This document shows, piece after piece, positions 3,947 through 50,699 of a stretch of 64,000 bases of DNA. Position 1 is the first letter of the stretch; the number at the start of each line of letters is the position of its first letter. A program made the translations under genes and the position numbers. The stretch lies in assembly GCA_021737185.1 (NCBI GenBank), contig JAIPEL010000002.1, forward strand, positions 1-64,000, in the 5' to 3' direction. The notes beneath the pieces are model-generated. The model worked only from the letters and a program-made list of their open reading frames with translations, made no database searches and was not told the origin of the DNA. The stretch is from Desulfobacterales bacterium (GTDB lineage Bacteria > Desulfobacterota > Desulfobacteria > Desulfobacterales > CAFBRK01).

Positions 3947-5074
3947 CTACTGTCTTCCCACATAGGTAAATGCCTTGGAAGTCTGGCGGATGTGAACCTG
4001 GCCGTGGCATCGGTCCGTGAAGGCGCCCGCCTCCCGAAGTGCCGCAACTACTGCAAAGACGGTGCTTTCCGGGACCACCATGCTGCAAGCATCCCGCGCA
4101 AGCGGTATATCGCTCAAGGGGGAATCGGCGGAGCGGATATGTTTCGCATGGCACATGGTGGCCCCGCCGGCCCCGGCCGCCATCGACGCCTCTACGAGCT
4201 TTATTCCTGTACCGGCGTCGCATAGAAGCGTAAGGTCCACCAGATTTCGAATATAGACTTTTTTTTGCCGGCCCTTTTTCTCAAAAACGCTTTTTCGGTT
4301 TCGCCAGTCTGTATTTCCCCGGATGCTGTCTAATACGGTGATGATCTGCTCGATGCTGGCCGCATAGCGCTGCTCTCCGCGCTTCACACGGAGATTGATC
4401 AGTCCTTTTTTGACCGGAAAACCGTAGATAAAACCGCTGCCCGGCCTGGACAGCTGCCCGGCCTCGATCATCATCTCCATGATATTGTTGGCTTCATAAG
4501 GCATGGTGAACGACTGCACGATCTCCTTTTCTGCGGGAATGGTGATCCGCAAAAGGCCCATTTTGTCCCGAACACCGGTCCCGGTCCCGAAATGAATGGA
4601 CGGCACGCACATGCCCATGTCCAGCGGGATCCTGGCCACCGTGTCTCCCTCGCCCCGCTTCATGATGCAGCAGATGCCGATGCAGGGATGCAGATGGATG
4701 GACGGCGCCTTGAACTCGAACGACGGCAGCTCATTTTCCACACAAAGATCGTGGCTCTTCAGCAACGTCACCTCTTCGGCGATTACCGTTCCTCTTCCCG
4801 GAAAATAGAGCTCTCCTTTGTCGATGATCAGACTGATGAGAGAATCTTCCAATTCCGGATTCACGAGAAAAAAGAGGGTGTCCAATGGGTCTTCGGCAAG
4901 ATCCCGCCCGGGCAGAAGGGAGAAGACCCCTTTTTTTTCTTCGATGACGAGCGAGCGGGCGGAATAGATATGACAGTCCTGAACCCCCGCTTCTTTCAAT
5001 GCATCCAGCACATCCTTGGATATGTTCCGGTGCAGGTATGCGGTAATGCGGGAGACGGTCCGGTTGCACTCCAT
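3947..5074 (-). CDS. Triple-domain PII-like regulatory protein
   Basis: A 375-residue protein that reads as three PII-like (ferredoxin-fold) domains in tandem: about residues 1-110, 120-230 and 235-375. Recurrent features are a helix of the form ALKEAG / MMIEAG / ALREAG and strand-turns such as GRGTV and HFGTGTGV. Classic PII proteins are trimers of about 112 residues, so one chain may mimic a whole trimer. The gene lies 11 bases downstream of the DUF1538 transporter with its own AGGAGA site, so both are surely one operon. By analogy with GlnK-AmtB it likely binds a nucleotide and gates the transporter. The T-loop regions diverge from GlnB/GlnK and no uridylylation tyrosine motif is evident. 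Confidence 0.75.
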   Translation of the reverse strand: MECNRTVSRITAYLHRNISKDVLDALKEAGVQDCHIYSARSLVIEEKKGVFSLLPGRDLAEDPLDTLFFLVNPELEDSLISLIIDKGELYFPGRGTVIAEEVTLLKSHDLCVENELPSFEFKAPSIHLHPCIGICCIMKRGEGDTVARIPLDMGMCVPSIHFGTGTGVRDKMGLLRITIPAEKEIVQSFTMPYEANNIMEMMIEAGQLSRPGSGFIYGFPVKKGLINLRVKRGEQRYAASIEQIITVLDSIRGNTDWRNRKSVFEKKGRQKKVYIRNLVDLTLLCDAGTGIKLVEASMAAGAGGATMCHAKHIRSADSPLSDIPLARDACSMVVPESTVFAVVAALREAGAFTDRCHGQVHIRQTSKAFTYVGRQ

Positions 5075-5085
5075 GGTTTCTCCTT

Positions 5086-7071
5086 TTATGTCTCTGCCGA
5101 AGCGTCTTCTTCCAGTGCGGCCTTTCTTTTCCGGTTGATGTGGAGCCCGAACAGAAGAACGGAAAGAATCGGGAACACCGATGCGGAAGCCAGAATGCCG
5201 AACCCTTCCACGACGCCTACCTGAGAGCCGATGCCAAGACCCATGGCAAGCACCAGGGGAACGGTGATCGGCCCGGTCGTGACGCCGGCGCTGTCCCAGC
5301 CGATGTTCACGAATTCTTCGGTCGAAAGCTTCGTCACAACCAACAGCAGGACGTAGGGGGGCAGCAAAATCCAGGCAAGGGGAATGGCCAGAACGATTTT
5401 GGTCACCCCCAGGGCAATGCCGGCGCCGACCCCGATGGCCACGGCCTGCATGAGAAATGACTTTTTAAAAGTCCCGGCGGTGACTTCCTCCACGGTGATG
5501 CCCAGGGCGTTCAACGCCGGCTCGGCCAGCGTGGCCCCGTATCCCATGATAAAGGCGAATAAAACAACGACGAAAACCCCGGCCAAGGGGCTTCCGGAGC
5601 CGAACAGCGGCCCCTTGGTCGGCGTGTAGTAGTATTTTCCGGTTTCAGGATCGAAGGCGGCCGAATCATAGGGGATGCTTTGGACCTTTCCGTTTTTTTC
5701 GACAAAGAAAAAGTGGTGCTTTCTGCCGTCTTCGGAGATGGCTGTTTTGACCAGGTCCGGGTCGAAATCGGCAATCGTTCGGTCTTCTTCGGGGATGGGG
5801 ATCGCCTTGAAAGCTGCCGGCAGCTTGTTTCCCACCTGGGTTCCCAGCTTGTCCAGCCCCAGTTCGATGCCGATGCTGAAGGTTGCCAGCCCGAGAATGC
5901 AGAAGAAAATGCCCAGCAAAATTTCATCGGGATAGGGCAGGGCCTCCCGCACCAGAAGAAAAAAAACCAGAAAAAGCGGTATGGTGAGCAGTCCGATGGC
6001 CTTGAAGGCAGCGGCAAAATTCTTCCCGACCAATTGCTGCATACCGATTCCGGCTTGGCTGGCCGTTGCGGGGCTGCCGGTTTTGGATGGGTTCGGCACC
6101 GGCAAAGATGGGGCGGTTTTTGGGGCATTGTTTCCGAAAAAGGCGGCCTGGGTTTCAGGATCGGCCTCGGATTGGACGTATTGTGTCAGTGCATCGCCGT
6201 CCTTGAAAAGCCGCTCGATTTTCGATCGGTTTTCTGCGGTGAAGAATTCGGCCCTGTCCATGGGTTCGGGGGCGGATCCGTTGAAAAAAAGGCCCAGGCC
6301 GAGTACGCAGATCGCCGGAAGCAAAGAAGCAAGGGTTACGACCCCGAATCCGGTGGTGCCCGACTCGACCGATCCCACCATTCTGGAAACTCCGATTCCC
6401 AATGCCAGCACCAACGGCACGGTGACCGGACCGGTGGTCACGGCGCCGCAATCCCACGCCAGGCCGATGATGCTTTTCATGTTTTCGTCGAAATTCGCCC
6501 AGGCCGTGATCAGGACCAATGCACCGACAAAGACGTAGATAAACGGCTTGAGGGAGATGCTGTAGTAGAAGCGGAGCATCCCCAGCCCGACCGCCAGGCC
6601 GACCCCGCTTCCCACGGAATAAACGAGATAGTGAGGGTACTTGTTGAGCAGCAGAAATAAAAGCGGCGCTTCCCAGGGCTTCACCGACGTTCCCGCCATC
6701 TGCAGGACCTGGATGGACGGTTCGGCCAGGGTCGCCAGAAACCCGAGAACCAGGGCAAAGGCCACGACGATCCAGATTGACGCTTTTTTGGGAAGTCCCC
6801 CGCCCACAAGAGACCCGAGGCGCATCAGCCCTAAAAACAGGCCTTCCATAAAGAAGGTCAGACCGACGACCACAAGCCCGATTCCGACGGCGACCACGGA
6901 CGCCTCGAAAATTTTGATTTTCAGGATGAACACCTGAAAAAACACCAGATACAGAATGATCAGCCAGACCGATTTGATCTGGGTCATCAACCGGTCCTTG
7001 ACGTAAGGGGCCAGCAGGGCCATGGCCTGGCGTGCGCCGAGCTTGATTCGCTGCGGTTTTTTAGCGGTCAC
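5086..7071 (-). CDS. DUF1538 double-repeat transporter (UmpAB-like fusion)
   Basis: A 661-residue inner-membrane protein made of two homologous DUF1538 repeats (about residues 1-260 and 350-640). Each carries the signatures TLAEPSIQVL / TLAEPALNAL and a matching WD-x-GAVTTGPVTVPLV / WDSAGVTTGPITVPLV segment. A soluble linker of about 80-100 residues rich in Pro/Thr/Ala separates them. Two separate DUF1538 proteins (UmpA and UmpB, Halomonas) have been reported as a two-component Na+(Li+,K+)/H+ antiporter; here both are one chain. The start is a GTG with an AGGTGA site upstream. It is co-transcribed with the PII-like gene that follows. The substrate in this organism is inferred. Confidence 0.85.
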   Translation of the reverse strand: MTAKKPQRIKLGARQAMALLAPYVKDRLMTQIKSVWLIILYLVFFQVFILKIKIFEASVVAVGIGLVVVGLTFFMEGLFLGLMRLGSLVGGGLPKKASIWIVVAFALVLGFLATLAEPSIQVLQMAGTSVKPWEAPLLFLLLNKYPHYLVYSVGSGVGLAVGLGMLRFYYSISLKPFIYVFVGALVLITAWANFDENMKSIIGLAWDCGAVTTGPVTVPLVLALGIGVSRMVGSVESGTTGFGVVTLASLLPAICVLGLGLFFNGSAPEPMDRAEFFTAENRSKIERLFKDGDALTQYVQSEADPETQAAFFGNNAPKTAPSLPVPNPSKTGSPATASQAGIGMQQLVGKNFAAAFKAIGLLTIPLFLVFFLLVREALPYPDEILLGIFFCILGLATFSIGIELGLDKLGTQVGNKLPAAFKAIPIPEEDRTIADFDPDLVKTAISEDGRKHHFFFVEKNGKVQSIPYDSAAFDPETGKYYYTPTKGPLFGSGSPLAGVFVVVLFAFIMGYGATLAEPALNALGITVEEVTAGTFKKSFLMQAVAIGVGAGIALGVTKIVLAIPLAWILLPPYVLLLVVTKLSTEEFVNIGWDSAGVTTGPITVPLVLAMGLGIGSQVGVVEGFGILASASVFPILSVLLFGLHINRKRKAALEEDASAET

Positions 7072-11246: not shown

Positions 11247-11275
11247 TTGACAATAGGGAACAGGGCCGATATATT
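11247..11275 (+). promoter_or_regulatory. Sigma-70 promoter of the arsR/redox block
   Basis: TTGACA at 11247-11252 and TATATT at 11270-11275 are separated by exactly 17 bases. Transcription would begin near 11282, which excludes the upstream ATG at 11247 as the arsR start. A short dyad overlapping the -10 (ATATTCC) recurs near 11672 ahead of the permease gene and may be the repressor site. Confidence 0.8.
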
Positions 11276-11300
11276 CCAAAAAAGCGATATGGAGCGAACC

Positions 11301-11648
11301 ATGAAAGAGTTTTTGAAGGTGATGAAGGCTGCATCGGACCCCACCCGGGTCAAGATGTTAAAGATGCTGGAACAAAAGAGAATGTGCGTCTGCGAGATCC
11401 AAACCGGACTCGGGGCGGCACAGTCCACCACCAGCAAGCATTTGAAGATCCTGGAAGACGCCGGCCTGGTCATGTCCCAAAAAGACGGCCTGTGGGTGAA
11501 CTACACCCTTGCCGACGGCCGCCAGAGCCCCTATGCGGCCGCGCTGCTGGGCAATCTTCGCCACTGGCTCAACGAAGAGCCGGAGATCGCCGCCGTCACC
11601 AGTCAGGTCCAGCGGCTTGACCGTTTCCAGATTTTGAACAAGAATTGA
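11301..11648 (+). CDS. ArsR-family winged-helix repressor
   Basis: A dimeric metalloregulator. The DNA-binding winged helix spans about residues 10-85 with the recognition helix around STTSKHLKILEDAG. The metal-sensing motif CVCEI (residues near 33-37) in helix alpha3 is the arsenic/antimony-type CxC site. The start at 11301 has a GGAG site six bases upstream; 11289 is the alternative. It is the first gene of the block and presumably represses it and the adjacent permease in the absence of thiophilic metal or metalloid. Length (115 aa) is normal. Confidence 0.92.
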   Translation: MKEFLKVMKAASDPTRVKMLKMLEQKRMCVCEIQTGLGAAQSTTSKHLKILEDAGLVMSQKDGLWVNYTLADGRQSPYAAALLGNLRHWLNEEPEIAAVTSQVQRLDRFQILNKN

Positions 11649-11769: not shown

Positions 11770-13158
11770 ATGAGTCAGACAACAAACGTTGCAGAAGAAA
11801 CCCATTTCCAGGAAGACGCAGACAACCATAGCGAGGAACAGGCCGAGCCGAGCCAGATCGACTGGTCGATGATATGGAAGCCGCTGGCCGCGATTATCGG
11901 GGTTTTCGTGCTGTTTTTCTTTCTGCCCATGGGCAGCGAGCGGTTTACCGGATCGGTGATCGAAGCCCTGGCCCTGGCCAAATGGTACGCCCAGGAGCAC
12001 GTGCTGCTCTGCCTGGTGCCGGCCTTTTTCATCGCCGGCGCCATTGCCGTGTTCGTCAGCCAAGGGGCGGTCATGAAATACCTGGGCGCCGGCGCCCACA
12101 AGGTGCTCTCCTACGGGGTGGCCAGCGTGTCCGGATCCGTGTTGGCGGTCTGTTCCTGCACGGTGCTGCCCCTGTTTGCAGGCATCTGGCAGCGGGGAGC
12201 GGGCCTGGGGCCGGCCGTGGCCTTTTTATACAGCGGGCCGGCCATCAACGTGCTGGCCATTATCCTCACCGCCCGAATTTTGGGTCCTGAATTAGGGGTA
12301 GCCCGGGCCGTGGGCGCGATCGTGTTCAGCGTGGTCATCGGCCTGCTCATGCACCTGATGTTCAGAAAAGAGGAGCAGGCCAAGGCCGCTGCGGCCATGC
12401 ACATGCCCGAACCGGAGGTGGACCGGAGCCTCGGCCAGAACGTGCTCTTTTTCGCCGTCATGATCGGCCTGCTGGTGGCGGCCACCTGGAGCGAGCCGGC
12501 CCAGGACGCCGGCTTATGGCATGCGGTCTATTCGGTAAAATGGCTTCTCACCGGCGGATTCGCCCTGGCGCTGGGCGCACTGATGGTGTTCTGGATGGGG
12601 GTGAAGATCTACAAGGTGCTGGCGGCCGCTGTTGCGGTTCTGGCGATCGCGCTCCTGGTGCCGGCTCATCCGCTAATCCCCTTTTCGGCCGGCATCGTCG
12701 CTTTTGTCGTGCTGCTTGCCACCACGCGGGGAGAAACCGAGAGCTGGTTTCTGTCCACCTGGGATTTTGCCAAGCAGATCCTGCCGCTGCTTTTGGCCGG
12801 GGTGCTGGTGGCCGGGCTCCTGCTGGGACGGCCGGGCTCGGAAGGGCTGATTCCCTCCGAATGGGTCAGCGGTCTTGTGGGCGGAAATTCCCTGTGGGCC
12901 AACGTGTTTGCCTCGGTGGTGGGCGCCTTCATGTACTTTGCCACCCTGACCGAGGTACCGATCCTGCAGGGACTGATCGGCGCGGGCATGGGAAAAGGCC
13001 CGGCTCTGGCCCTGCTGCTGGCGGGTCCGGCCCTGAGCCTTCCCAACATGCTGGTCATTCGAAGCGTACTGGGAACGAAAAAAACTGCGGTCTTCGTCGG
13101 CCTGGTGGTGGTCATGGCGACGATCAGCGGACTGATCTTCGGGACCTTTTTCGCTTGA
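11770..13158 (+). CDS. YraQ/ArsP-type permease
   Basis: A 462-residue polytopic inner-membrane permease of the DUF318/ArsP family. The family signature CSCTVLPLFAGI (about residues 128-139) is followed by GLGPAVAFLYSGPAINVLA, and the second half has a matching VGAFMYFATLTEVPILQGL and a repeat-like GPALSLPNMLVI. ArsP members export trivalent organoarsenicals, and the vicinal cysteines in this motif may bind the substrate. The N-terminal 35 residues are polar and acidic. A GGAGAC site precedes the ATG. Placement right after an As-type ArsR supports metalloid export, but other soft-metal or sulfur substrates remain possible. Confidence 0.85.
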   Translation: MSQTTNVAEETHFQEDADNHSEEQAEPSQIDWSMIWKPLAAIIGVFVLFFFLPMGSERFTGSVIEALALAKWYAQEHVLLCLVPAFFIAGAIAVFVSQGAVMKYLGAGAHKVLSYGVASVSGSVLAVCSCTVLPLFAGIWQRGAGLGPAVAFLYSGPAINVLAIILTARILGPELGVARAVGAIVFSVVIGLLMHLMFRKEEQAKAAAAMHMPEPEVDRSLGQNVLFFAVMIGLLVAATWSEPAQDAGLWHAVYSVKWLLTGGFALALGALMVFWMGVKIYKVLAAAVAVLAIALLVPAHPLIPFSAGIVAFVVLLATTRGETESWFLSTWDFAKQILPLLLAGVLVAGLLLGRPGSEGLIPSEWVSGLVGGNSLWANVFASVVGAFMYFATLTEVPILQGLIGAGMGKGPALALLLAGPALSLPNMLVIRSVLGTKKTAVFVGLVVVMATISGLIFGTFFA

Positions 13159-13340
13159 GTGTATGCTGACGCAATTATTGTGACAATTGTTTCACCGCTG
13201 AGTCGCTGAGAATGCGGAGGATACGCACAGATGATATTAAGGGTTTTTCTGCGCCCTCGGCGTCTCCACGGTGAGTATTCGTCGATCTACACTACTTCAC
13301 CGAAATAATGCCATCGAGTACTAAGGATCAGGAATCGGAC

Positions 13341-13856
13341 ATGAGTGATGTCGAAGTGACCCGCACCCGGGTAGGCAAGCATCCCGTAGGCATCATCGAC
13401 CTGAAAAAAGGCCTGGCAGCGGTGGATGCCGAATATGCCGGCAGATCCGATGGCGAAATCGCCGAAGCGCTGCTGAATCAATTGGGACAGTGGAACTATA
13501 TCGATCCAAAGGTCCGCGAGCTATACGGCAAGGCGTTTTTGCGGGAGTATAAAAAGTGGAAGGGCGAACCCTTCGAGGAAGAGGAAGAAACCGGCGGTCT
13601 GCAGGTCAAGGTGCTCGGCCCCGGATGCCCCAACTGCGAAAAGCTGGAGCAGGACCTGATGGCGATATCCGTCGAGATGAACCTGCCCATCGACCTGGAG
13701 CACGTCCGGGATCCGGAACAGATCGCCGAATACGGCATGATGGCCATGCCGGCGCTGGTGATCGGAAAAGAGGTCAAGGCCGCCGGCCGTGCACCGACCA
13801 AAGCCACGTTAAAACAGTGGCTGGAGCAGGCCGCTTTCGCAAAGCGGAACGAATAA
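13341..13856 (+). CDS. Fusion of NYx-type helical domain and small redox-disulfide thioredoxin
   Basis: A 171-residue cytosolic protein. Residues 1-85 form an alpha-helical domain (GIIDLKKGL, NQLGQWNYIDPKV, AFLREYKKWKG) that is also encoded as a stand-alone gene at 24552-24782. An acidic linker (EEEEE) joins it to a small thioredoxin-like domain with the redox site GPGCPNCEKLE (about residues 95-105) and the cis-Pro loop MMAMPALVIG. Such CxxC mini-thioredoxins are typical partners of ArsP-type permeases. An AGGA site precedes the ATG. The fusion suggests that the helical domain works with the redox protein. Confidence 0.8.
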   Translation: MSDVEVTRTRVGKHPVGIIDLKKGLAAVDAEYAGRSDGEIAEALLNQLGQWNYIDPKVRELYGKAFLREYKKWKGEPFEEEEETGGLQVKVLGPGCPNCEKLEQDLMAISVEMNLPIDLEHVRDPEQIAEYGMMAMPALVIGKEVKAAGRAPTKATLKQWLEQAAFAKRNE

Positions 13857-14164: not shown

Positions 14165-14398
14165 ATGGAAATCAAAGTACTGGGACCGGGCTGTCCGAAA
14201 TGCCAGCAGACGGAAAGAATCGTCAAGGAGGCCGTTTCCGAAAGCGGCGTGGATGCTCAAATCGACAAGGTGACCGACACCATGGAAATCGCCGGCTACG
14301 GCGTGTTCGGAACGCCGGCGGTGGTGGTCGACGGCGAGGTCAAGTCTGTGGGAAAGATTCCGAAGAAAGAAGACGTCAAAAAATGGCTCAAAAAATAG
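14165..14398 (+). CDS. Small redox-active disulfide thioredoxin, 77 aa
   Basis: A stand-alone mini-thioredoxin of the MTH895/TM0077 type. The redox site is GPGCPKCQQ (about residues 6-14) and the cis-proline loop is VFGTPAVVVDG (about 47-57). It lacks a signal peptide, so it acts in the cytoplasm. Its sequence is close to the C-terminal half of the fusion protein at 13341-13856. An AGGAGAGC site precedes the ATG. It probably passes electrons to a reductase or to the permease's cytosolic cysteines. Confidence 0.92.
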   Translation: MEIKVLGPGCPKCQQTERIVKEAVSESGVDAQIDKVTDTMEIAGYGVFGTPAVVVDGEVKSVGKIPKKEDVKKWLKK

Positions 14399-14408
14399 GG
14401 AGGATGTC

Positions 14409-14969
14409 ATGGCCGAAACATGCTGCGGCAGCGGAAACGACGTGCTGCTCGAAAGCTACCGGCTGGAGATCTTCAACTCGGCGTGCAACCCCGGCGCCAT
14501 GGCCGTGCACTGCTTCGCCCATCTGGACCAGGACATCAGTGATGCCCTGCCTTACCTGAATGCCGCCCTGGGCGGATTCGAATACATCCAGGATCCGCCC
14601 TCGGTCACCTTCAAGGCCCAGGGCAAGCTGATTACCGTCCACGGGCGCAAGATCGCGGTCAACGCGCTCAAGGACGAAGCCGAGGCCCGCAAGATCGTAG
14701 AATGGCTCAAGCGGGAGATCAACGACGCCTGGGACAACAGGGACCAGATCGAGCCCAGCACCGAAGGCGCCCCCCGGCCGAAGGTGATCGAGGTTCTGAA
14801 GCTTCTTCCGAAAACCAACTGCAGGCAATGCGGCGAGCCCACCTGCCTGGTGTTTGCCACAAGGCTGGCCGAAGGGGCCAAAGGGGTCGATGCTTGTGAA
14901 CCGCTGGATTCGGAGCAGCGCGGAGCCCTGGAAAACTACCTGGGCCGGTTCAACCTGGCGGATTGGTGA
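14409..14969 (+). CDS. Fe-S-cluster protein with C-terminal 4Fe-4S motif
   Basis: A 186-residue cytosolic protein. The C-terminal third carries TNCRQCGEPTCLVFA plus a later DACEPL, the four-cysteine pattern of the small Fe-S domain found in CO dehydrogenase/acetyl-CoA synthase corrinoid subunits (AcsD/CdhD-like). The N-terminus has a CC pair (AETCCGSG), and a middle segment of about 100 residues is unrecognised. It starts ten bases after the mini-thioredoxin, so it is in the same operon and is a likely electron donor or acceptor in the redox relay. Family members recur next to ArsP-type permeases, but their reaction is unknown to me. Confidence 0.78.
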   Translation: MAETCCGSGNDVLLESYRLEIFNSACNPGAMAVHCFAHLDQDISDALPYLNAALGGFEYIQDPPSVTFKAQGKLITVHGRKIAVNALKDEAEARKIVEWLKREINDAWDNRDQIEPSTEGAPRPKVIEVLKLLPKTNCRQCGEPTCLVFATRLAEGAKGVDACEPLDSEQRGALENYLGRFNLADW

Positions 14970-15578: not shown

Positions 15579-15753
15579 ATCCTCTTTCTTCGGTTGACAG
15601 GGGCGATGGATGTTTCTCCCCTGGATAGTCTTTCGCAAGCCCCGCCCGGTCCGGGTGGCGGTTCCCCCGATTCGATTCAGAAGCCGCCGGGTCGTCCGGC
15701 CGGAAGATACGGTGCACATGATCACAAAGGACAACGATAAAAGGTGCGATGAA

Positions 15754-16683
15754 ATGCGTTTCCAGAGAGTAAAAAAATCCTGCGGGCGATTGATTTTATG
15801 CGCAATGGTGTTGATACTGTCGGCCGTCTTTCCGGGAGACTCCGGCGCCGCCACATTGGGCAGCCGCTACCCCGGACTCAGCACAGGCCTGCTCAAATCC
15901 GCGGAGCTGGCGTCCCTGGATGAAGATGTCCTGCTGACGTCAAAAGGGGTCATCATCACGCACAAAGAGCTGCTCGATGGCATCAAAGACCAGGAGCCGG
16001 TTCTGCGCGCGCAGCTGGAAAAGAACCTGATCTTCCTGCTGGAGCAGGAAGCGGTGCGCCGCATTTTGCTAAGCGAAGCCGAAAAGGCGGGCATTGCGGC
16101 TGCAGACGGAGACGAAAACCGGGCGATTCAGGCCTTGTTCGGACACCGCACCCGGGATTTGGCCGTATCTGAAAACGAAGCGCTCGCCTTTTATGCAGCC
16201 AACAAGGAAACGATGGGCGGCGCCCCCTTCGAGCAGGTTGCGGACATGATCCGCCAATACCTGCTCCAGGACAAACAGCAGAAAGCGGTCGCCCGCTATA
16301 TCGACGGCTTGGGCGATTCCGTGGCCATGCGCATCAACGGGAACTGGGTCAAAGCCCAGGCCAGCCTGGCTGCGGATAACCCCGTGGACAGGGCCCGCCG
16401 CTCCGGCAGGCCGACCCTGGTGGAATTCGGCGCCACGGGCTGCGTGCCCTGCGACATGATGCAGCCCATTTTGGACAAGCTGCGCAAGGAGTATCCCCAA
16501 CAGCTCAACGTGGTCTTCGTCCATGTGGGCGAAGAGCAGATCTTAGGGGCGCGCTACGGCATCCAGTCCATCCCCGTGCAGGTGTTCTTCGACGCCGACG
16601 GCAATGAGGTGCTCCGGCATGTCGGTTTCTTCGCCCAGAGCGAAGTGGAGCGGCAGCTGGCCAAAATGGGGGTGAAAAAATGA
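15754..16683 (+). CDS. Exported SurA-like plus thioredoxin fusion, 309 aa
   Basis: The ATG at 15754 is chosen because of its AAGGTG site and because it exposes a signal peptide (CGRLILCAMVLILSAVF). Residues 35-190 resemble the helical N-domain of SurA-type chaperones (ITHKELLDGI, LEKNLIFLLEQEAVRR), without a parvulin domain. The C-terminal 110 residues are a thioredoxin with the active site GATGCVPCDMM (about residues 226-236) and cis-Pro loop IQSIPVQVFF. Periplasmic. Its stop overlaps the next thioredoxin start. It likely hands electrons from the membrane CcdA to folding substrates. Confidence 0.85.
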   Translation: MRFQRVKKSCGRLILCAMVLILSAVFPGDSGAATLGSRYPGLSTGLLKSAELASLDEDVLLTSKGVIITHKELLDGIKDQEPVLRAQLEKNLIFLLEQEAVRRILLSEAEKAGIAAADGDENRAIQALFGHRTRDLAVSENEALAFYAANKETMGGAPFEQVADMIRQYLLQDKQQKAVARYIDGLGDSVAMRINGNWVKAQASLAADNPVDRARRSGRPTLVEFGATGCVPCDMMQPILDKLRKEYPQQLNVVFVHVGEEQILGARYGIQSIPVQVFFDADGNEVLRHVGFFAQSEVERQLAKMGVKK

Positions 16684-17105
16684 TGTCCAAAGCAAATTGG
16701 GGCAAAGCGGCGGCGGTGGCGCTGGTTGCGGGGCTGGCCGTCATTGCCGCCGTCCAGGTGCAGGGGCCGGCCAAAGGCCCGGAGGCCGGAATCCCGGTGG
16801 ACCGACCGGGCCCTGCCGCGCCTTCTTCCGGCCGGGTGACCATGATCGACCTGGGAGCCACCGAGTGCGTTCCATGCAAGATGATGGCCCCCATCATAGA
16901 AGAGCTGAAAAAAGAATATGCCGGAAGGGCCGATATCATCTTCATCGACGTATGGAAAAACCCGCCTGAGGCCAGAAAATACGGTATCCGGGCCATTCCC
17001 ACGCAGATTTTCTTCGATGCCGGGGGGCGGGAGGTCTACCGCCATACCGGTTTCCTTGATAAGAAACGGATTGTCGACGCCCTGACCCGGCTGGGGGTAT
17101 CCTGA
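16680..17105 (+). CDS. Exported thioredoxin, 141 aa
   Basis: An N-terminal signal anchor (AAAVALVAGLAVIAAVQV) precedes a thioredoxin fold with active site GATECVPCKMM (about residues 59-69), cis-proline loop IRAIPTQIFF and GFLDKKRIVDAL at the end. The ATG (two are adjacent at 16680 and 16683) overlaps the upstream stop. The core is nearly identical to the thioredoxin in the arsenic operon at 50289-50699 (shared MAPIIEELKKEYAG). It is probably reduced by the CcdA-type protein encoded next. Confidence 0.92.
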   Translation: MMSKANWGKAAAVALVAGLAVIAAVQVQGPAKGPEAGIPVDRPGPAAPSSGRVTMIDLGATECVPCKMMAPIIEELKKEYAGRADIIFIDVWKNPPEARKYGIRAIPTQIFFDAGGREVYRHTGFLDKKRIVDALTRLGVS

Positions 17106-17156: not shown

Positions 17157-17867
17157 ATGTTCGATCAATTTCTGATTACGGTAAACCAGTGGATGTCCGG
17201 CGGGCTGGTTCTTGCTGCTGCGGGTGCCTTTGCCTGGGGCATGGTCAGCGTGCTGCTTTCCCCGTGCCATCTGGCCTCCATCCCCCTGATCGTGGCCTAC
17301 GTGGGCGGCCAGGAAAACACCCTTCATCCACGGCGGGCTGCCGGGTACGCGATCGCCTTTTCGGCGGGGCTGTTCATCACCATCGCGGTGGTCGGCATCG
17401 TCTGCGCCCTGCTGGGGCGCATGTTGGGAGATGTGGGCACCTGGTGGCAAGTGCTCGTCGGCGCCGTTCTGATCTGGGTGGCTTTAGGCATGCTGGGAGT
17501 GCAGGCCTGCTCCATGTCCGGATCGCTCCTTTACCGGCTCAACTTGCGCGGCATCCATGGCGCTTTCGGCCTGGGGCTGGCCTACGGCGTGCTGTCGGGC
17601 TCCTGCACTTTTGGTTTCATCGCACCTATTCTGGCCATCGTCACCGTGCAGCAAAAGATCGTCGCAGGTTCGGTGATGATGATCCTTTTCGCTGTGGGTC
17701 ATTGCCTGCCCATCGCCATTGCCGGCAGTTCGACGGCCATGTTGCGCAAAGTCACGGAAAACAGCGCCTGGCAGGGAGCCGGCATTTGGTTCCGGCGCGG
17801 CGCCGGGGTGGTGATCGCCCTGCTGGGGGTTTATTTCATATACACCCCGTTTGCCGGAGGGATCTGA
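17157..17867 (+). CDS. CcdA/DsbD-type transmembrane electron carrier
   Basis: A 236-residue inner-membrane protein with six membrane segments. It carries the family signature VLLSPCHLASIPLI (cysteine about residue 39) and a second half with SGSCTFGFIAPILAI (cysteine about 150). These two intramembrane cysteines carry electrons from cytosolic thioredoxin to periplasmic thioredoxins. No fused periplasmic domains are present, so the two thioredoxin genes upstream are its likely partners. It lies 51 bases after the second thioredoxin stop. Confidence 0.92.
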   Translation: MFDQFLITVNQWMSGGLVLAAAGAFAWGMVSVLLSPCHLASIPLIVAYVGGQENTLHPRRAAGYAIAFSAGLFITIAVVGIVCALLGRMLGDVGTWWQVLVGAVLIWVALGMLGVQACSMSGSLLYRLNLRGIHGAFGLGLAYGVLSGSCTFGFIAPILAIVTVQQKIVAGSVMMILFAVGHCLPIAIAGSSTAMLRKVTENSAWQGAGIWFRRGAGVVIALLGVYFIYTPFAGGI

Positions 17868-18130: not shown

Positions 18131-18260
18131 TTTTTTGTTTCGGGTTGAAAGGCAGAGCCAATTGCTTCTGACCTGGTCCTGATGATCGGGATTGTGAGAT
18201 TGCATTCAAACATTCGGTATGCCGGCGGCATCGCTTTGCCCGGCGGGAACAGATACAGCT

Positions 18261-18767
18261 ATGGACATGGATCGACAAAAACGAAGCGCTTTCAAACAAT
18301 CGCTCTGGCAGATGCCCGCGATCATTGCCGTGGCCTGCCTGATCGGCCTTGCCGTCAACCAGTTCCGGCCCGACGGCATCGCGCTTGTCGGCGACTGGTC
18401 CCAGGACGCGCGCTTTTTAGACGCCGCCGGAGACAGCCTGGTGGTCTCTATTGAAACGGCCGAGCAACTGTTCCGGCAGGAAAGGGCCCTGTTCGTCGAT
18501 GCGCGTTCGCAAAGAGAGTATGCCGCAGGCCACATTCGCGGAGCGCTGAGCATACCCTGGCAGGAGGTGGACCGATATTTCATCGAAATGGTCGACCGGC
18601 TGGAAGGCCCTCACACCATCATCACCTACTGCGACGGGGAAACCTGCGACCTGAGCCACGACCTGGCCCTTTTCCTCAAAGAGATGGGGTTTGAAAACGT
18701 GCGCGTGCTGGTCAACGGTTGGACCGTGTGGAAACAGGGCGGCCTGCCGACGGATGAGGGGGGATGA
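18261..18767 (+). CDS. Membrane-anchored rhodanese-like protein
   Basis: An N-terminal membrane segment (IIAVACLIGLAVN, about residues 19-31) is followed by a periplasmic rhodanese domain. Visible landmarks are VDARSQREYAAGHI (about 82-95), IPWQEVDRYF and the active-site loop TYCDGETCDLS (about 129-139), with the catalytic cysteine expected first in the loop. Rhodaneses carry sulfane sulfur as a persulfide. Start uncertain between 18219 and 18261; 18261 fits the topology. It lies four bases upstream of the MauE/DoxX gene, a recurrent pairing. Confidence 0.85.
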   Translation: MDMDRQKRSAFKQSLWQMPAIIAVACLIGLAVNQFRPDGIALVGDWSQDARFLDAAGDSLVVSIETAEQLFRQERALFVDARSQREYAAGHIRGALSIPWQEVDRYFIEMVDRLEGPHTIITYCDGETCDLSHDLALFLKEMGFENVRVLVNGWTVWKQGGLPTDEGG

Positions 18768-18771
18768 CATC

Positions 18772-19236
18772 ATGCGCGGTCAATTTTTGTATCACGCGGC
18801 GCGGATCGTTCTGGGGCTGATCTTTTTGTTCGCCTGCTATGACAAGATTTTGCATCCGGGAGAATTCGCCGAAGTCGTCTACAATTACCAGCTGCTGCCG
18901 GACAGCCTCGTCAACGTCACGGCGATCCTGCTTCCGTGGGTGGAGCTGGCGCTCGGTCTGAGCCTGATTTTCAATGTCTGGATTCCCGGCGCGGTCCTGC
19001 TCGGCAATCTGCTGCTTGTGGCTTTTTTCTCGGCGCTGCTCTTTAACCTGGCCCGGGGTCTCGATGTGAGCTGCGGCTGTTTTTCCACCGCCCCCGGAGA
19101 AGAGGCCATCGATCATTTTACGGTGCTCAGGGACATGTCGTTTCTCCTTGTCTCCGGCTACCTCTTTTACGCAGCATTGTTGTCGGGTTCGCCGGCCGCC
19201 GAAAAAGCAGCGTGGCCGCGGGCTGAGACCGAATAA
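18772..19236 (+). CDS. MauE/DoxX-type membrane protein
   Basis: A 154-residue protein with four membrane helices. The opening helix has FACYDKILHP, and the last loop has the diagnostic SCGCFS motif (about residues 100-105) of the methylamine-utilisation MauE family. MauE-type proteins serve periplasmic disulfide or redox maturation. A strong GGGGGA site precedes the ATG. It forms a pair with the rhodanese, and both probably funnel electrons or sulfur toward the DUF1573 protein encoded next. Confidence 0.88.
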   Translation: MRGQFLYHAARIVLGLIFLFACYDKILHPGEFAEVVYNYQLLPDSLVNVTAILLPWVELALGLSLIFNVWIPGAVLLGNLLLVAFFSALLFNLARGLDVSCGCFSTAPGEEAIDHFTVLRDMSFLLVSGYLFYAALLSGSPAAEKAAWPRAETE

Positions 19237-19463: not shown

Positions 19464-20171
19464 ATGACTCGAAAAGCAATGGTACTGTTCGGTCTTGCGC
19501 TCGCCGTTTGTGTGTTGACGGCAGAAATTGCTTTGGCCGACCCAACGGCGGAAGGAGCTCCCCATCTGGTGCTCGGCGAGACGCGCTATGATTTCGGCAC
19601 CGTGGTGGAAGGAAGTCCGGTTTCCTGTGAATTTGTGGTTGCAAACAAGGGTGACGCCCCGCTTCAGATCCTGGAAATGAAGTCCGGCTGAGGATGCACT
19701 GCCGCGACCAGTACGCGGCAGATCCCTCCCGGGCAGGAGGGTCGCATCCAGGTGAATGTGCACACCGCCGGCTACGGCGGGCAGACAATGCGGGAGAGCA
19801 TTCAGATCAAAACCAACGATCCGGTTCTTCCCTGGTTCAGCGTGGGGGTGGTCGGCAAGGTGGAAAAATTCGTCGACATCCAGCCCGAACGTGTTCATAT
19901 GGAAGGCCCTGCCGGCCGGATGCTGTCCGCCGAGGTGACCATCATCCCCCGGCCGGATCGCCCGTTTCGAATCGGGCAGATCCGGGTCAAAAACGGCACC
20001 TTCATCAAGTATGAACTGACCCAGCGCTGCGCCGACGGCAAAAACCGCTGCGTGATCCGGGTGGAAAATACCCGAAAGGAAAAAGGCCGGTACATCGACG
20101 CCCTTTTTGTGGAAACCGACAGCGAAATCAAGCCGGTGATCCCGATATACGTCATGGGCACGATCCGGTAG
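19464..20171 (+). CDS. DUF1573 protein, candidate selenoprotein (in-frame TGA)
   Basis: A 235-codon frame with a single in-frame TGA at 19689-19691. N-terminal signal peptide (LFGLALAVCVLTAEIALA), then a DUF1573 immunoglobulin-like domain: YDFGTVVEGSPV, then EMKSG-TGA-GCT, then IPPGQEGRIQVNV and IKTNDP. DUF1573 members have a CGCT motif here, so TGA replaces the first cysteine, as expected for selenocysteine. Eight bases downstream is a perfect 8-bp stem suited to a bacterial SECIS. The frame stays open and conserved for 160 more codons, unlike a decayed gene. ATG chosen for its AAAGGAAC site. Likely periplasmic, redox-active. Confidence 0.82.
19689..19721 (+). promoter_or_regulatory. Candidate bacterial SECIS element after the TGA
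   Basis: TGA at 19689-19691 is followed after seven bases by CTGCCGCG (19699-19706), loop ACCAGTA (19707-19713) and CGCGGCAG (19714-19721), a perfect 8-bp stem. Opening the top G-C pair gives a loop that begins with G, as is usual for bSECIS. The stem-to-UGA distance is in the known range. Confidence 0.7.
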
Positions 20172-20187
20172 CCGGGAGGGATTAACG

Positions 20188-20337
20188 ATGAACCTGAAAC
20201 CCGTGCAGCTTCGCCTGGAAACCGAGGAGGTGCGCCGGCTTCTTCAGGCATCGCTGGATGACGATGCGAAGGAGGCCCTGGCCTTCGTCAAGACCGTGCT
20301 TGCCAAAAAAGTCGAAAAAGCCCTCCAGCGGCATTGA
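20188..20337 (+). CDS. Small conserved helical protein, 49 aa
   Basis: A compact, charged, helix-rich protein with the core RRLLQASLDDDAKEALAFVK. A GGGAGGG site lies eight bases before the ATG, 16 bases after the DUF1573 stop. A paralogue at 23845-23985 shares the pattern [11 protein letters not shown] and a lysine-rich end. The pair shows a small family of about 45-50 residues that rides with redox/metal genes here. It is cytosolic and has no cysteine. Function unknown. Confidence 0.72.
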   Translation: MNLKPVQLRLETEEVRRLLQASLDDDAKEALAFVKTVLAKKVEKALQRH

Positions 20338-20468: not shown

Positions 20469-21311
20469 ATGAATATCGAGAAAAAGGAAAATGGAAGCAG
20501 GCGACCGCATGAAATCGACAAGTTGAGCGTACTCATATTGGCAAGCTTCCTGGCGTTTTTGGTCCTTGCCGGCCCCTTTTCTCCGGCCATGGCCGAATGC
20601 CCGCCGGCTGAAAGGCTCAAGGCGGATATCGAGCGGGTGACGAATCAAAAGACCGAGATCGTGGCGATCCGCCCCTCTGCGGTACCGTCTCTTTGTGAAG
20701 TGGTGGTGTTCAACGGCTCGCAGAACGGGATTTTTTACACCGACACGACCGGGGAGTTGTTTATTTTCGGGAACCTGATCGAGGCCGCCGATGGAAACAA
20801 TCTCACCCGGCAGACCCTGGCGGAGTTCAACCGGCTGACGGACCGGGAGATGGAAGAGCTTTCCTTTTTTACGGCGTTTTCCATCGGAGACGAGTCCGCA
20901 ACGGTGTTGTATTATGTCACCGACCCCCAGTGCCCTTACTGCAAACGCGGAGAGGAAGACCTCAAAAAGCTGGCCGCGGAAGGAAAACTCCACGCCCGGT
21001 TCTTGTTGTTCCCGCTCGCTTCCCACGAGGGCGCATTCGAACAGTGCGTTTCCGTCGTCTGCGACGGCAAGGGCCTGGAGGATTTCGAAAACGGCTACCG
21101 CTCGGAGAATCAATGCGAAGACGGCCGGCTGCTGGTGGAGTCGGGCGTCGATTTTTTGAAGAAGAAAGGGGTTCAAGGGACGCCGACCTATATTTTCGGA
21201 GACGGCCGGTTTCACAGCGGGTTTCTGAAGATGCCGGATCTTCTGAAGCGGCTGAACGCTTCTCAGCCTCGATCGGAGACATCCGGTGCTGGCCCGGCGG
21301 AAAGCAAATAG
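20469..21311 (+). CDS. DsbC/DsbG-like periplasmic thiol-disulfide protein
   Basis: The product (280 aa) has a long N-terminal leader with one membrane segment (VLILASFLAFLVLAGPF), ending in a probable signal-peptide cleavage near AMA. It continues with a DsbC-type N-domain (residues 45-120) and a thioredoxin-like domain with active site TDPQCPYCKRGE (CPYC near residue 156) and cis-Pro loop VQGTPTYIFG. DsbC-family proteins isomerise wrong disulfides and are kept reduced by DsbD/CcdA, so the CcdA gene in this block is a natural partner. A GGAGGG site lies 11 bases upstream. The tail is Ser/Gly-rich. Confidence 0.87.
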   Translation: MNIEKKENGSRRPHEIDKLSVLILASFLAFLVLAGPFSPAMAECPPAERLKADIERVTNQKTEIVAIRPSAVPSLCEVVVFNGSQNGIFYTDTTGELFIFGNLIEAADGNNLTRQTLAEFNRLTDREMEELSFFTAFSIGDESATVLYYVTDPQCPYCKRGEEDLKKLAAEGKLHARFLLFPLASHEGAFEQCVSVVCDGKGLEDFENGYRSENQCEDGRLLVESGVDFLKKKGVQGTPTYIFGDGRFHSGFLKMPDLLKRLNASQPRSETSGAGPAESK

Positions 21312-47578: not shown

Positions 47579-47607
47579 TTGACAGATGATTTAGGGTGGC
47601 GTAAATT
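47579..47607 (+). promoter_or_regulatory. Sigma-70 promoter of the arsenic operon
   Basis: TTGACA (47579-47584) and TAAATT (47602-47607) with 17-base spacing. The following AT-rich run with AATT reiterations (AATTctaatAATTcgttAATT) is a plausible ArsR operator overlapping the start region. Confidence 0.8.
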
Positions 47608-47653
47608 CTAATAATTCGTTAATTGGCAAAATATAGAAAAAGGCGGGAAGGTC

Positions 47654-48049
47654 ATGAGGCACCTTGTCCGAACCACCAAGGCCCTTGCAGACGAAAGCCG
47701 GATCCGCATCCTGGGGGCGCTTCGCGAAAACGAGCTTTGCGTTTGCCAGCTCATCGAGCTGCTGGGGCTTGCCCCGTCCACCGTTTCCAAGCACCTGTCG
47801 ATTCTCAGAAATGCCCGTCTGATCGACAGCCGGAAGCAGGGACGGTGGATGTACTACCGTGTGGCCGGCGCGGATGCGCCCGAGCAGATTGCTCAGGTTC
47901 TCAGGTGGGTGTTTGAGACCTTCGAAAAAACGGAGCAACGGGAAAAGGACGACCGGCGGTTGAAAGAGATTCTGAGCATGGATCCGGAGATATTGTGCAG
48001 CCGTCAGCCGAGTTCCAACAGCGGCGATGCCAAGACGACTCAGGGATGA
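47654..48049 (+). CDS. arsR: ArsR-family arsenic repressor, 131 aa
   Basis: A winged-helix metalloregulator. The As(III)-binding motif is LCVCQLIELL (CxC at about residues 29-31), and the recognition helix is LAPSTVSKHLSILRNA. Its C-terminus adds about 40 residues with one cysteine (EILCSRQ). A GGGAAGG site precedes the ATG. It is the first gene of the operon and probably represses the promoter at 47579-47607 until As(III) or Sb(III) binds. It differs clearly from the ArsR at 11301. Confidence 0.93.
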   Translation: MRHLVRTTKALADESRIRILGALRENELCVCQLIELLGLAPSTVSKHLSILRNARLIDSRKQGRWMYYRVAGADAPEQIAQVLRWVFETFEKTEQREKDDRRLKEILSMDPEILCSRQPSSNSGDAKTTQG

Positions 48050-48074
48050 TGCTTTTGAAAAAACTCCCATAATT

Positions 48075-48170
48075 GTCGCTCCCGCGTAGGCGGGAGTTCA
48101 GAACTGTTTGAAATAACTGGATTCCCGCCTGCGCGGGAATGACAAAGAAAGAAAATAGCGACTTTTTACG
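48075..48170. repeat. Dispersed repeat family A, copy 5
   Basis: It consists of a hairpin CTCCCGCGTAGGCGGGAG (48079-48096), a hairpin ATTCCCGCCTGCGCGGGAAT (48121-48140) and the tail GCGACTTTTTACGAA. It sits between arsR and arsC without breaking either. Confidence 0.65.
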
Positions 48171-48194
48171 AAGATATCGACACCGAGAAGCAAA

Positions 48195-48659
48195 ATGACC
48201 GATCGTCTAAAAATTCTGTTCTTGTGCACCGGCAACTCCTGCCGGAGCCAGATGGCCGAAGGCTGGGCAAATCATCTCAAGGGCGATTCGATCGAGGCCT
48301 ATTCGGCCGGCATCGAAACCCACGGGATAAACCCGCTGGCGGTCAAGGCGATGGCCGAGGCCGGTGTGGACATCGGCAAACACGTCTCAAAAACCATCGA
48401 CGACCTGCCGGAAGCGCATTTCGACTACGTGGTCACCCTTTGCGGCCACGCCCACGAATCCTGCCCCCTGTTTCCGGGCCATGCGAAGGTGGTGCATCGG
48501 GGGTTCGACGACCCACCGAAGCTGGCCGAAGGCGCACAAAGTGAAGAAGAGGCCCTGGCGCACTACCGCCGGGTGCGAGATGAAATCCGAAAGTTTGTCG
48601 CAGATCGTCCGCAAAGTTTGTCGCGGCTAGAAGAGGCTGCACAAGGAGAGTTCCCATGA
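48195..48659 (+). CDS. arsC: Arsenate reductase, thioredoxin-coupled LMW-PTP type
   Basis: A 154-residue cytosolic enzyme reducing arsenate to arsenite. The P-loop [15 protein letters not shown] carries the catalytic cysteine (about residue 12), and the two resolving cysteines are in [11 protein letters not shown] (about residues 82 and 89). This is the thioredoxin-linked arsenate reductase arrangement. Its stop overlaps the acr3 start (ATGA). The exported thioredoxin genes here are not its donor; a cytosolic thioredoxin must be encoded elsewhere. Confidence 0.95.
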
Positions 48660-49747
48660 GCGATTCCACCATCAAACAACTGAGCGTTCTGGACCGCTTT
48701 CTCACGCTGTGGATTTTTCTGGCCATGGCCGCCGGGGTGTTCGGGGGCTACCTGTACCCCGGCGTGCGGGATTTTATCAACATCTTCCAGGTGGACACCA
48801 CCAACATCCCCATCGCCGTGGGTCTGATTCTGATGATGTACCCGCCGCTGGCCAAGGTGCGGTACGAAAAGCTGGGCTTCGTCTTCAGAGACGTGAAAAT
48901 TTTAGGGTTGTCCCTGGTGCAGAACTGGGTAATCGGCCCGATCCTGATGTTTTTGCTGGCCATCACGTTTTTGTCCGGCCACCACGAATACATGGTGGGG
49001 CTGATCATGATCGGCCTGGCCCGCTGCATCGCCATGGTCTTGGTCTGGAACGACCTGGCCAAGGGCGACGCCGAATACTGCGCGGGGCTGGTGGCGTTCA
49101 ACTCCATTTTCCAGGTGCTGTTTTTCTCGGTCTACGCCTGGTTTTTCATCACCATTTTGCCCGGCTGGTTCGGAATCGAGGGGGCCGTGGTCGATATCAC
49201 CATCGGCCAGATCGCAGAAAGCGTCTTCATCTACTTGGGGATTCCCTTTATCGCCGGGCTGATCACCCGCATCATCGGGCTGAAAACCAAGGGAGAAACC
49301 TGGTATCACGAGCGCTTCATCCCCAAAATCAGCCCGATCACGCTGATCGCCCTGCTGTTTACCATTTTGGTCATGTTCTCGCTCAAGGGCGAATACATCG
49401 TCAAACTTCCCCTGGACGTGGTGCGGATCGCCATTCCCCTGTGCATCTATTTTCTGGTCATGTTTCTGATCACGTTTTTCATGTCCATGAAATTCGGTGC
49501 CACCTACGAGCAGACCACGACGTTGTCTTTTACGGCGGCCTCCAACAACTTCGAACTGGCCATCGCCGTGGCCGTGGCCGTGTTCGGGATCAATTCCGGA
49601 GAGGCCTTTGCCGCGGTGATCGGCCCCCTGGTGGAGGTGCCGGTGCTCATTGCCCTGGTCAACGTGGCGCTGTGGTTCAAGCGCAGGTATTTTCCTTATG
49701 CGGTGGAGACTCCCACCGGGGTGTGCCACCTGACGTGCAAGCCATGA
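48656..49747 (+). CDS. acr3: Acr3-type arsenite efflux permease
   Basis: A ten-helix inner-membrane pump for As(III) of the Acr3/BASS family, 363 aa. The core has [19 protein letters not shown] (about residues 118-136, including the cysteine that is essential in characterised Acr3) and [20 protein letters not shown] (about 288-307, with the conserved glutamate). Energised by proton motive force. It overlaps arsC upstream and the universal stress gene downstream (ATGA), so the three are tightly coupled. Confidence 0.96.
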
Positions 49748-50244
49748 GCAGAACAATCGACCAGAGGCCTCGGGTAAGCCACATCCTGTTGGCCACTGAT
49801 TTGTCGGAAAACGCGAACCTGGCCTTTTCTTACGCCACGAGCCTGGCCGTTGCCTACGGCGCCAGGATCACTGTGCTCCATGTGGTTGAAAAACTGCCGC
49901 CCAATGCCGAACTTCTCATGGCGTCGTTTCTCGAGTATCGAGATGTGGAAGAATTCCGGGAGAAAAGCGGCGAAGAACTGGCCGCGCGGATCAAGGCCCG
50001 GATCGAGCGGTTCTGTTCAGATACCGCAGCGCAGATGCCCGACTGCCGCTTGATTTTTCAGAAAGTCGTCGTCGAGCCGGGAAACGCCGACGAGCGCATC
50101 GCCTTCCATGCGTCAGCCGTGGAATACGATGTGCTGGTGATGGGCAGCCGGGGCCACGGTCTGATCAAAGAATCCCTTATCGGCGGCACCTCGCGCAAAG
50201 TGCTCCAGAAAGTGCGAATCCCTGTCTTTCTGATCCCACTATGA
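49744..50244 (+). CDS. Universal stress protein A-family, 166 aa
   Basis: A UspA domain with [26 protein letters not shown] and the ATP-binding [22 protein letters not shown] motif (G-x2-G-x9-GS/T type, about residues 130-150). It probably binds ATP. Its position overlapping acr3 is often seen in arsenic loci of sulfate reducers. Role in metalloid stress is inferred. Confidence 0.92.
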
Positions 50245-50288
50245 TTGCCTGGAAGATTCCGTCGATCCGGTGAAAAGAAAGGATTCAT

Positions 50289-50699
50289 ATGCCAAAACGC
50301 GTCTATTGGCTTTTTATCTTCATTTTGATTTTGCTCGTCAGCCTTGCGTCGGTGCCGGCCGCGGCCGGCGATGCAAAACAGGGCGTCATACCGTCTGTAC
50401 CGACACCGAATATGGTCACCATGCTGGACCTGGGCGCAAATAAATGCGTTCCCTGCAAGATGATGGCGCCCATCATCGAGGAGTTGAAAAAGGAATATGC
50501 CGGCCGGGCCTCGATTATCTTCATCGATGTCTGGGAGCACAACGACCAGGTAAAGCGCTTCGGGATCCGGGCGATTCCCACCCAGATTTTTTACGACAAG
50601 AACGGCAAAGAGGTCCAGCGGCACGTGGGCTTCATGGACAAGAAAAGCATTGTCGCGGTTTTTGAAAAGCTGGGCGTTTCCAGGCCGGAGGGCAGCTGA
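50289..50699 (+). CDS. Exported thioredoxin, arsenic operon, 136 aa
   Basis: It has a signal peptide (VYWLFIFILILLVSLASVPAAAG) and a thioredoxin fold with active site GANKCVPCKMM (about residues 54-64) and cis-proline loop IRAIPTQIFY. Nearly the same protein is encoded at 16680-17105 (MAPIIEELKKEYAGRA shared), which indicates a duplicated module. A pre-ATG AAAGGA site is present. It works in the periplasm and needs a CcdA-type partner. Confidence 0.93.
   Translation: MPKRVYWLFIFILILLVSLASVPAAAGDAKQGVIPSVPTPNMVTMLDLGANKCVPCKMMAPIIEELKKEYAGRASIIFIDVWEHNDQVKRFGIRAIPTQIFYDKNGKEVQRHVGFMDKKSIVAVFEKLGVSRPEGS

Follow-up and report, generated by a model that had tools for sequence, protein, structure and literature searches.

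The gene at 19464-20171 of the window (the whole 64,000-nucleotide stretch of Desulfobacterales DNA analysed here) very probably encodes a selenoprotein of the OS_HP2 (DUF1573) family, in which a single in-frame TGA almost certainly specifies selenocysteine (Sec). The window copy belongs to a branch of the family that is linked to a conserved block of thioredoxin, MauE and ArsP genes and carries an additional pair of cysteines. The reading that we favour, with a probability of roughly 0.6, is that the protein is exported, that its Sec is inserted under the direction of a hairpin in the coding sequence, and that it acts as a selenol/thiol shuttle together with MauE and a thioredoxin/DsbD-type relay. 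The features of the gene are as follows.

19464-20171, + strand: OS_HP2/DUF1573 selenoprotein gene (PF07610, 1.7e-18; NF041425, 123.8 bits)
19689-19691, + strand: UGA codon, almost certainly for Sec, at position 1 of the U-G-C motif (U76-G77-C78; homologue alignment)
19699-19721, + strand: putative bacterial SECIS hairpin with an 8-bp stem and a 7-nt loop (folding, recoding and family comparison)
20028-20051, + strand: codons 189-196, holding the extra cysteine pair C189 and C196 (alignment)

The open reading frame starts at ATG 19464, preceded by an AAAGGAA-like ribosome site, and ends at a natural TAG (20169-20171), giving 235 amino acids when the TGA is read as Sec. Its sole in-frame TGA is codon 76 and, as a sequence-only reading of this DNA had proposed, falls on the first cysteine of the DUF1573 CGC motif, so that the motif reads SG-U-GCT. 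The same reading held that both flanks fit the family in one frame, which is borne out by the closest relatives, 40-57% identical across the TGA; the Pfam DUF1573 match covers residues 38-119 and so spans both sides of the codon. The NCBIfam model NF041425, “OS_HP2 family (seleno)protein”, matches residues 39-134 above its cut-off of 100 bits, and the window protein has its TGA at position 1 of the UGC/CGC motif, where Sec or Cys characterises OS_HP2 proteins. OS_HP2 was equated with pfam07610, with a UxC motif, in a 2008 ocean survey (PLoS Genet 2008 GOS survey, PMC2398784), and reviews of 2022 and 2026 tabulate a “DUF1573 domain-containing protein, UGC”, both crediting the OS_HP2 selenoprotein to Zhang & Gladyshev 2007 (PMC9312934, PMC13188914). 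Given the NF041425 match and these listings, the selenoprotein family is not new; the sequence-only reading was mistaken in calling the gene a probable new selenoprotein and in taking DUF1573 to be unlisted among bacterial selenoproteins. No functional assignment of OS_HP2 was found in the literature examined.

An OS_HP2 homologue is present in the genomes of 54 of 58 relatives. Among 70 homologous loci of the order, the codon aligned to the TGA is TGA in 55 and Cys (TGC or TGT) in 14, while one locus (L114) has its TGA shifted by one codon; no residue besides Sec or Cys occurs at this position in the set. Close relatives have TGA or Cys there and no other sense codon, which was the pattern to look for if the gene encodes a selenoprotein. 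When 389 genomes of the order were searched, 20 other matches better than E 1e-53 emerged, of which three also belong to the 70-homologue set; each contains exactly one TGA, and both forms were found among 118 genomes drawn from the phylum. In L114 (9973-9975), where the TGA comes one codon earlier, SGG-U-AS replaces G-U-GC, so that the second cysteine is lost, and a good hairpin is retained. A nonsense mutation of the ordinary kind, or a sequencing or assembly error, might be entertained as the source of the TGA for a host assembly in 201 contigs, since a single in-frame stop is what one error would produce. Against this, the TGA recurs at the same codon in all close relatives and in those 55 homologues, which span many families of the order; in addition, the protein is conserved on both flanks and the hairpin is under selection. 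Recurrence at this one site rules out a pseudogene or error as its cause, leaving such an origin a negligible probability.

The host genome (4.5 Mb, 91% complete) encodes the full machinery for Sec insertion, selA, selB, selC and selD all being present: a tRNA-Sec with anticodon TCA (73.8 bits), SelB (367 bits), SelA (527 bits) and two copies of SelD. This, together with the TGA or Cys in close relatives, supports the earlier proposal that the gene encodes a selenoprotein. Each of the two host selD genes (L046 and L047; G000:C61:5359-6285 and G000:C60:12451-13371) has one in-frame TGA, so that the two selenophosphate synthetases are probably selenoproteins too. The near-certainty attached to the Sec codon, which is an assignment from sequence, derives from the presence of this machinery, the restriction of homologues to TGA or Cys, and the conservation of a hairpin in the UGA members.

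The hairpin 3' of the TGA noticed in the sequence-only reading is indeed there, formed by CTGCCGCG (19699-19706), the loop ACCAGTA (19707-19713) and CGCGGCAG (19714-19721). Its stem begins at the eighth base past the TGA, with 7 nt between, and its folding energy is -18 to -19 kcal/mol; compared with dinucleotide shuffles the whole fold is only moderately unusual (z = -1.87). Because the hairpin region is coding, synonymous recoding was used as the control, with each sequence compared against recodings drawn with the codon usage of its own locus, and the 8-bp stem appeared in none of 200 recodings of the window sequence. In the register used for the family as a whole (bases 13-19 pairing with 26-32, the U of UGA being 0), the 68 UGA members form on average 5.46 of 7 pairs; synonymous recoding predicts 3.37 (sd 0.14), and slid registers give 2.1-2.8 pairs. 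The 14 Cys members form 3.0 pairs, compared with 2.29 (sd 0.25) after recoding, a small excess that could be a remnant. The window stem is in another register than that of most family members (10-17 with 25-32), but five close relatives (L171, L174, L175, L176 and L177) pair 5-7 of its 8 positions, and the shift therefore appears to be inherited rather than a chance stem.

The published bacterial SECIS model asks for a loop of 3-9 nt, a stem of 4-16 bp, a minimum free energy of at most -7.5 kcal/mol, a G in loop positions 1-2 and a spacing of 16-37 nt between UGA and loop (PMC13188914). The window hairpin agrees with the model in loop size, stem and energy, and departs from it in two of four constraints: neither of the first two bases of its loop (ACCAGTA) is a G, and its UGA-to-loop distance, 15 nt, falls one short of the range. 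The source of the model notes that established selenoproteins may also depart from it (PMC13188914). As the loop G is missing from most fully stemmed family members (33 of 44), OS_HP2 hairpins may constitute a divergent class of SECIS, and the contrast between Sec and Cys members in hairpin conservation is evidence for a class that the standard consensus misses.

Columns 76-78 (U76-G77-C78) are invariant across the alignment when U is read as C. Besides the motif, the sole conserved cysteines are one member-specific pair, C189 and C196, which always occur together and are confined to 8 of the 40 aligned members, every one of them from the redox-block clade. An AlphaFold2 model with Cys placed at position 76 (mean pLDDT 89.7) is all-beta after an N-terminal helix; the helix is compatible with a signal peptide, and the remainder is predicted to form two Ig-like beta domains. 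A fold search returned Ig/ASH-like proteins of cilia and the Porphyromonas protein 2qsv, with TM scores no higher than about 0.5, and so supports the type of fold only. The PDB contained no sequence relative of the window protein, and no solved protein was found in which a UxC or CxC motif functions on an Ig-like fold. Relatives of 340-400 amino acids seem to carry extra Ig-like repeats; a MauE-DUF1573 fusion was considered for them and rejected, no MauE being visible by eye.

OS_HP2 genes occur in two genomic settings. Outside the block group, 54 of 68 loci have the gene directly before a HAD phosphatase gene, often with a priA-like gene further upstream (both names come from reading cluster sequences, not from a database match). 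The second OS_HP2 copy of the host (L081) is in this HAD-type setting and groups with that of a genome of the same family. At one locus (L188, G093:C37:14970-16208) a tandem pair of OS_HP2 genes precedes the HAD gene, one with a TGA and one without a stop, and is a natural Sec/no-Sec pair. The 19 block-type loci encode thioredoxin (15), rhodanese (14), DsbD_TM (13), MauE (13), Trx3 (11), ArsP (10) and HAD (0), counts that are biased by some block loci having been picked by similarity to the window protein. Block genes are nearly absent from the 68 other loci, none of which has MauE or the thioredoxin TrxB, while one (L112) has ArsR, ArsP and Trx3. Seventeen of the 19 block-type loci, the window copy among them, form one clade (support 99/93); the other two (L061 and L179) make up a second pair in a poorly resolved part of the tree. 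MauE is missing at 6 of the 19, some of them on short contigs, where gene absences are uncertain, and MauE is perhaps not obligatory as a partner.

In the window the block consists of the following genes, besides that of the selenoprotein.

11247-11648, + strand: ArsR-family repressor (Pfam)
11770-13158, + strand: ArsP_1 permease (PF03773, 5.8e-73)
13308-13856, + strand: protein with a C-terminal MTH895/ArsE-like thioredoxin domain (Pfam Thioredoxin_3 and family-model matches)
14165-14398, + strand: small thioredoxin of the MTH895/ArsE family (TIGR00412, 104.5 bits, cut-off 62)
14409-14969, + strand: protein with a C-terminal FeS domain (PF04060)
15610-16683, + strand: longer protein with a C-terminal thioredoxin domain (Pfam)
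16680-17105, + strand: thioredoxin-fold protein with an N-terminal membrane or signal segment (PF00085, 7.7e-15)
17157-17867, + strand: DsbD_TM/CcdA-like membrane electron carrier (PF02683, 3.9e-14)
18219-18767, + strand: rhodanese-like protein with an N-terminal hydrophobic segment (PF00581, 9.8e-17)
18766-19236 (start approximate), + strand: MauE/DoxX-family membrane protein with a CGCF motif, immediately upstream of the OS_HP2 gene (PF07291, 3.3e-27)
20469-21311, + strand: DsbC/DsbG-like periplasmic thiol protein (PF10411, 1.7e-11)

These Pfam matches agree with the earlier description of a periplasmic thiol-redox block around the gene. The MauE neighbour is well above the Pfam cut-off (95.7 bits versus 27), and its CGCF motif is invariant in the MauE proteins of the block (13 of 13 aligned homologues). 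The ArsP_1 permease scores below the cut-offs of the SO_0444 Cu/Zn and SaoE equivalogs. In the protein at 13308-13856, the part before the thioredoxin domain is DsrC/TusE-like by eye, Thioredoxin_3 being its sole Pfam match. A 49-amino-acid ORF (20188-20337) lies between the selenoprotein and DsbC-like genes, and similar small ORFs are found near OS_HP2 at several block loci. Some 28-31 kb downstream in the window, at about 47600-50600, there are further matches to the ArsR and thioredoxin queries, perhaps representing a second related gene group. Three candidates for a second Sec gene in the block were checked and none was supported: in L172 the rhodanese adjoining a block-type OS_HP2 (4837-5334) carries an in-frame TGA close to the C-terminal end, where the window protein has Gly, which is probably an error or truncation; the rhodanese of L171 looks like a frameshift; and the DsbC match of L052 holds a TAA.

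MauE and MauD are the maturation pair of methylamine dehydrogenase. The window block resembles this system in placing a MauE-family membrane protein beside soluble extracytoplasmic thiol proteins, but differs in that the soluble partner would be the DUF1573 selenoprotein; no mau structural genes were seen in the window block. It also resembles the three-selenoprotein Tso system, where TsoB is a rhodanese/DsbD fusion selenoprotein, in bringing together rhodanese and DsbD-type membrane parts. However, in the window these are separate genes without Sec, and their products match TsoB weakly (45-49 bits against a cut-off of 805), which rules out a Tso system. Compared with OS_HP2 proteins in general, the window protein has the same domain, the U-G-C motif, a score over the cut-off and a Sec/Cys exchange column, and it is set apart by its branch, tied to the thioredoxin/MauE/ArsP block, and by the extra cysteine pair.

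In the mechanism that we propose, UGA 19689 would be read as Sec by the host SelA, SelB, SelC and SelD, with the hairpin immediately 3' of the codon directing its insertion. Once mature, the protein would consist of two Ig-like domains in the periplasm, with Sec76-Gly-Cys78 as a redox pair on the first and C189/C196 perhaps as a resolving or structural disulfide. In the branch of the window copy, it would serve as a soluble selenol/thiol shuttle, exchanging electrons with its CGCF-bearing neighbour MauE and with the operon's thioredoxin/DsbD-type relay; the operon would be under ArsR-type control.

The main rival accepts the Sec and takes U-G-C for a ligand of metal(loid)s or mercury rather than a redox couple, the block, with its ArsR and ArsP, then being an operon for metal(loid) resistance. 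Sec has been proposed as a metal ligand in SaoB, SaoC and the UXX-star proteins (PMC13188914), and the ArsR repressor, ArsP_1 permease and ArsE-like thioredoxin are neighbours that such an operon might have. Nevertheless, the thioredoxin folds, DsbD_TM, DsbC and MauE encoded nearby suggest thiol-disulfide exchange, and most OS_HP2 members adjoin a HAD phosphatase and none of the genes of the block; we consider a ligand role unlikely, at about one chance in four. Less probable still is a role as a substrate or as a structural Ig-type protein, with UGC a passive bond and the operon serving only to fold it. The Ig/ASH-like fold seen by structure match would suit such a role, as would weak matches of the family model within very large open frames (over 1000 amino acids), but most members retain the costly Sec at a single invariant position, which speaks for reactivity, and beyond the motif the conserved cysteines are limited to the one member-specific pair.

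As a selenoprotein, the window gene is no more than a further member of a family that has been known since 2007. In the literature covered, which leaves aside some recent work on selenoprotein neighbourhoods, no mention of the block-linked OS_HP2 branch was found, and this branch is possibly undescribed so far. It is conceivable, though we hold it only tentatively, that the OS_HP2 proteins linked to the block form a subfamily of their own, a selenol/thiol Ig-fold partner of CGCF-bearing MauE, with a second cysteine pair in a subgroup, in a periplasmic electron relay of undescribed type for defence against metal(loid)s or sulfur species. The division of OS_HP2 into HAD-linked and thioredoxin/MauE/ArsP-linked forms points to MauE as a specific candidate partner and to a stress setting in which the function of the family may be tested.
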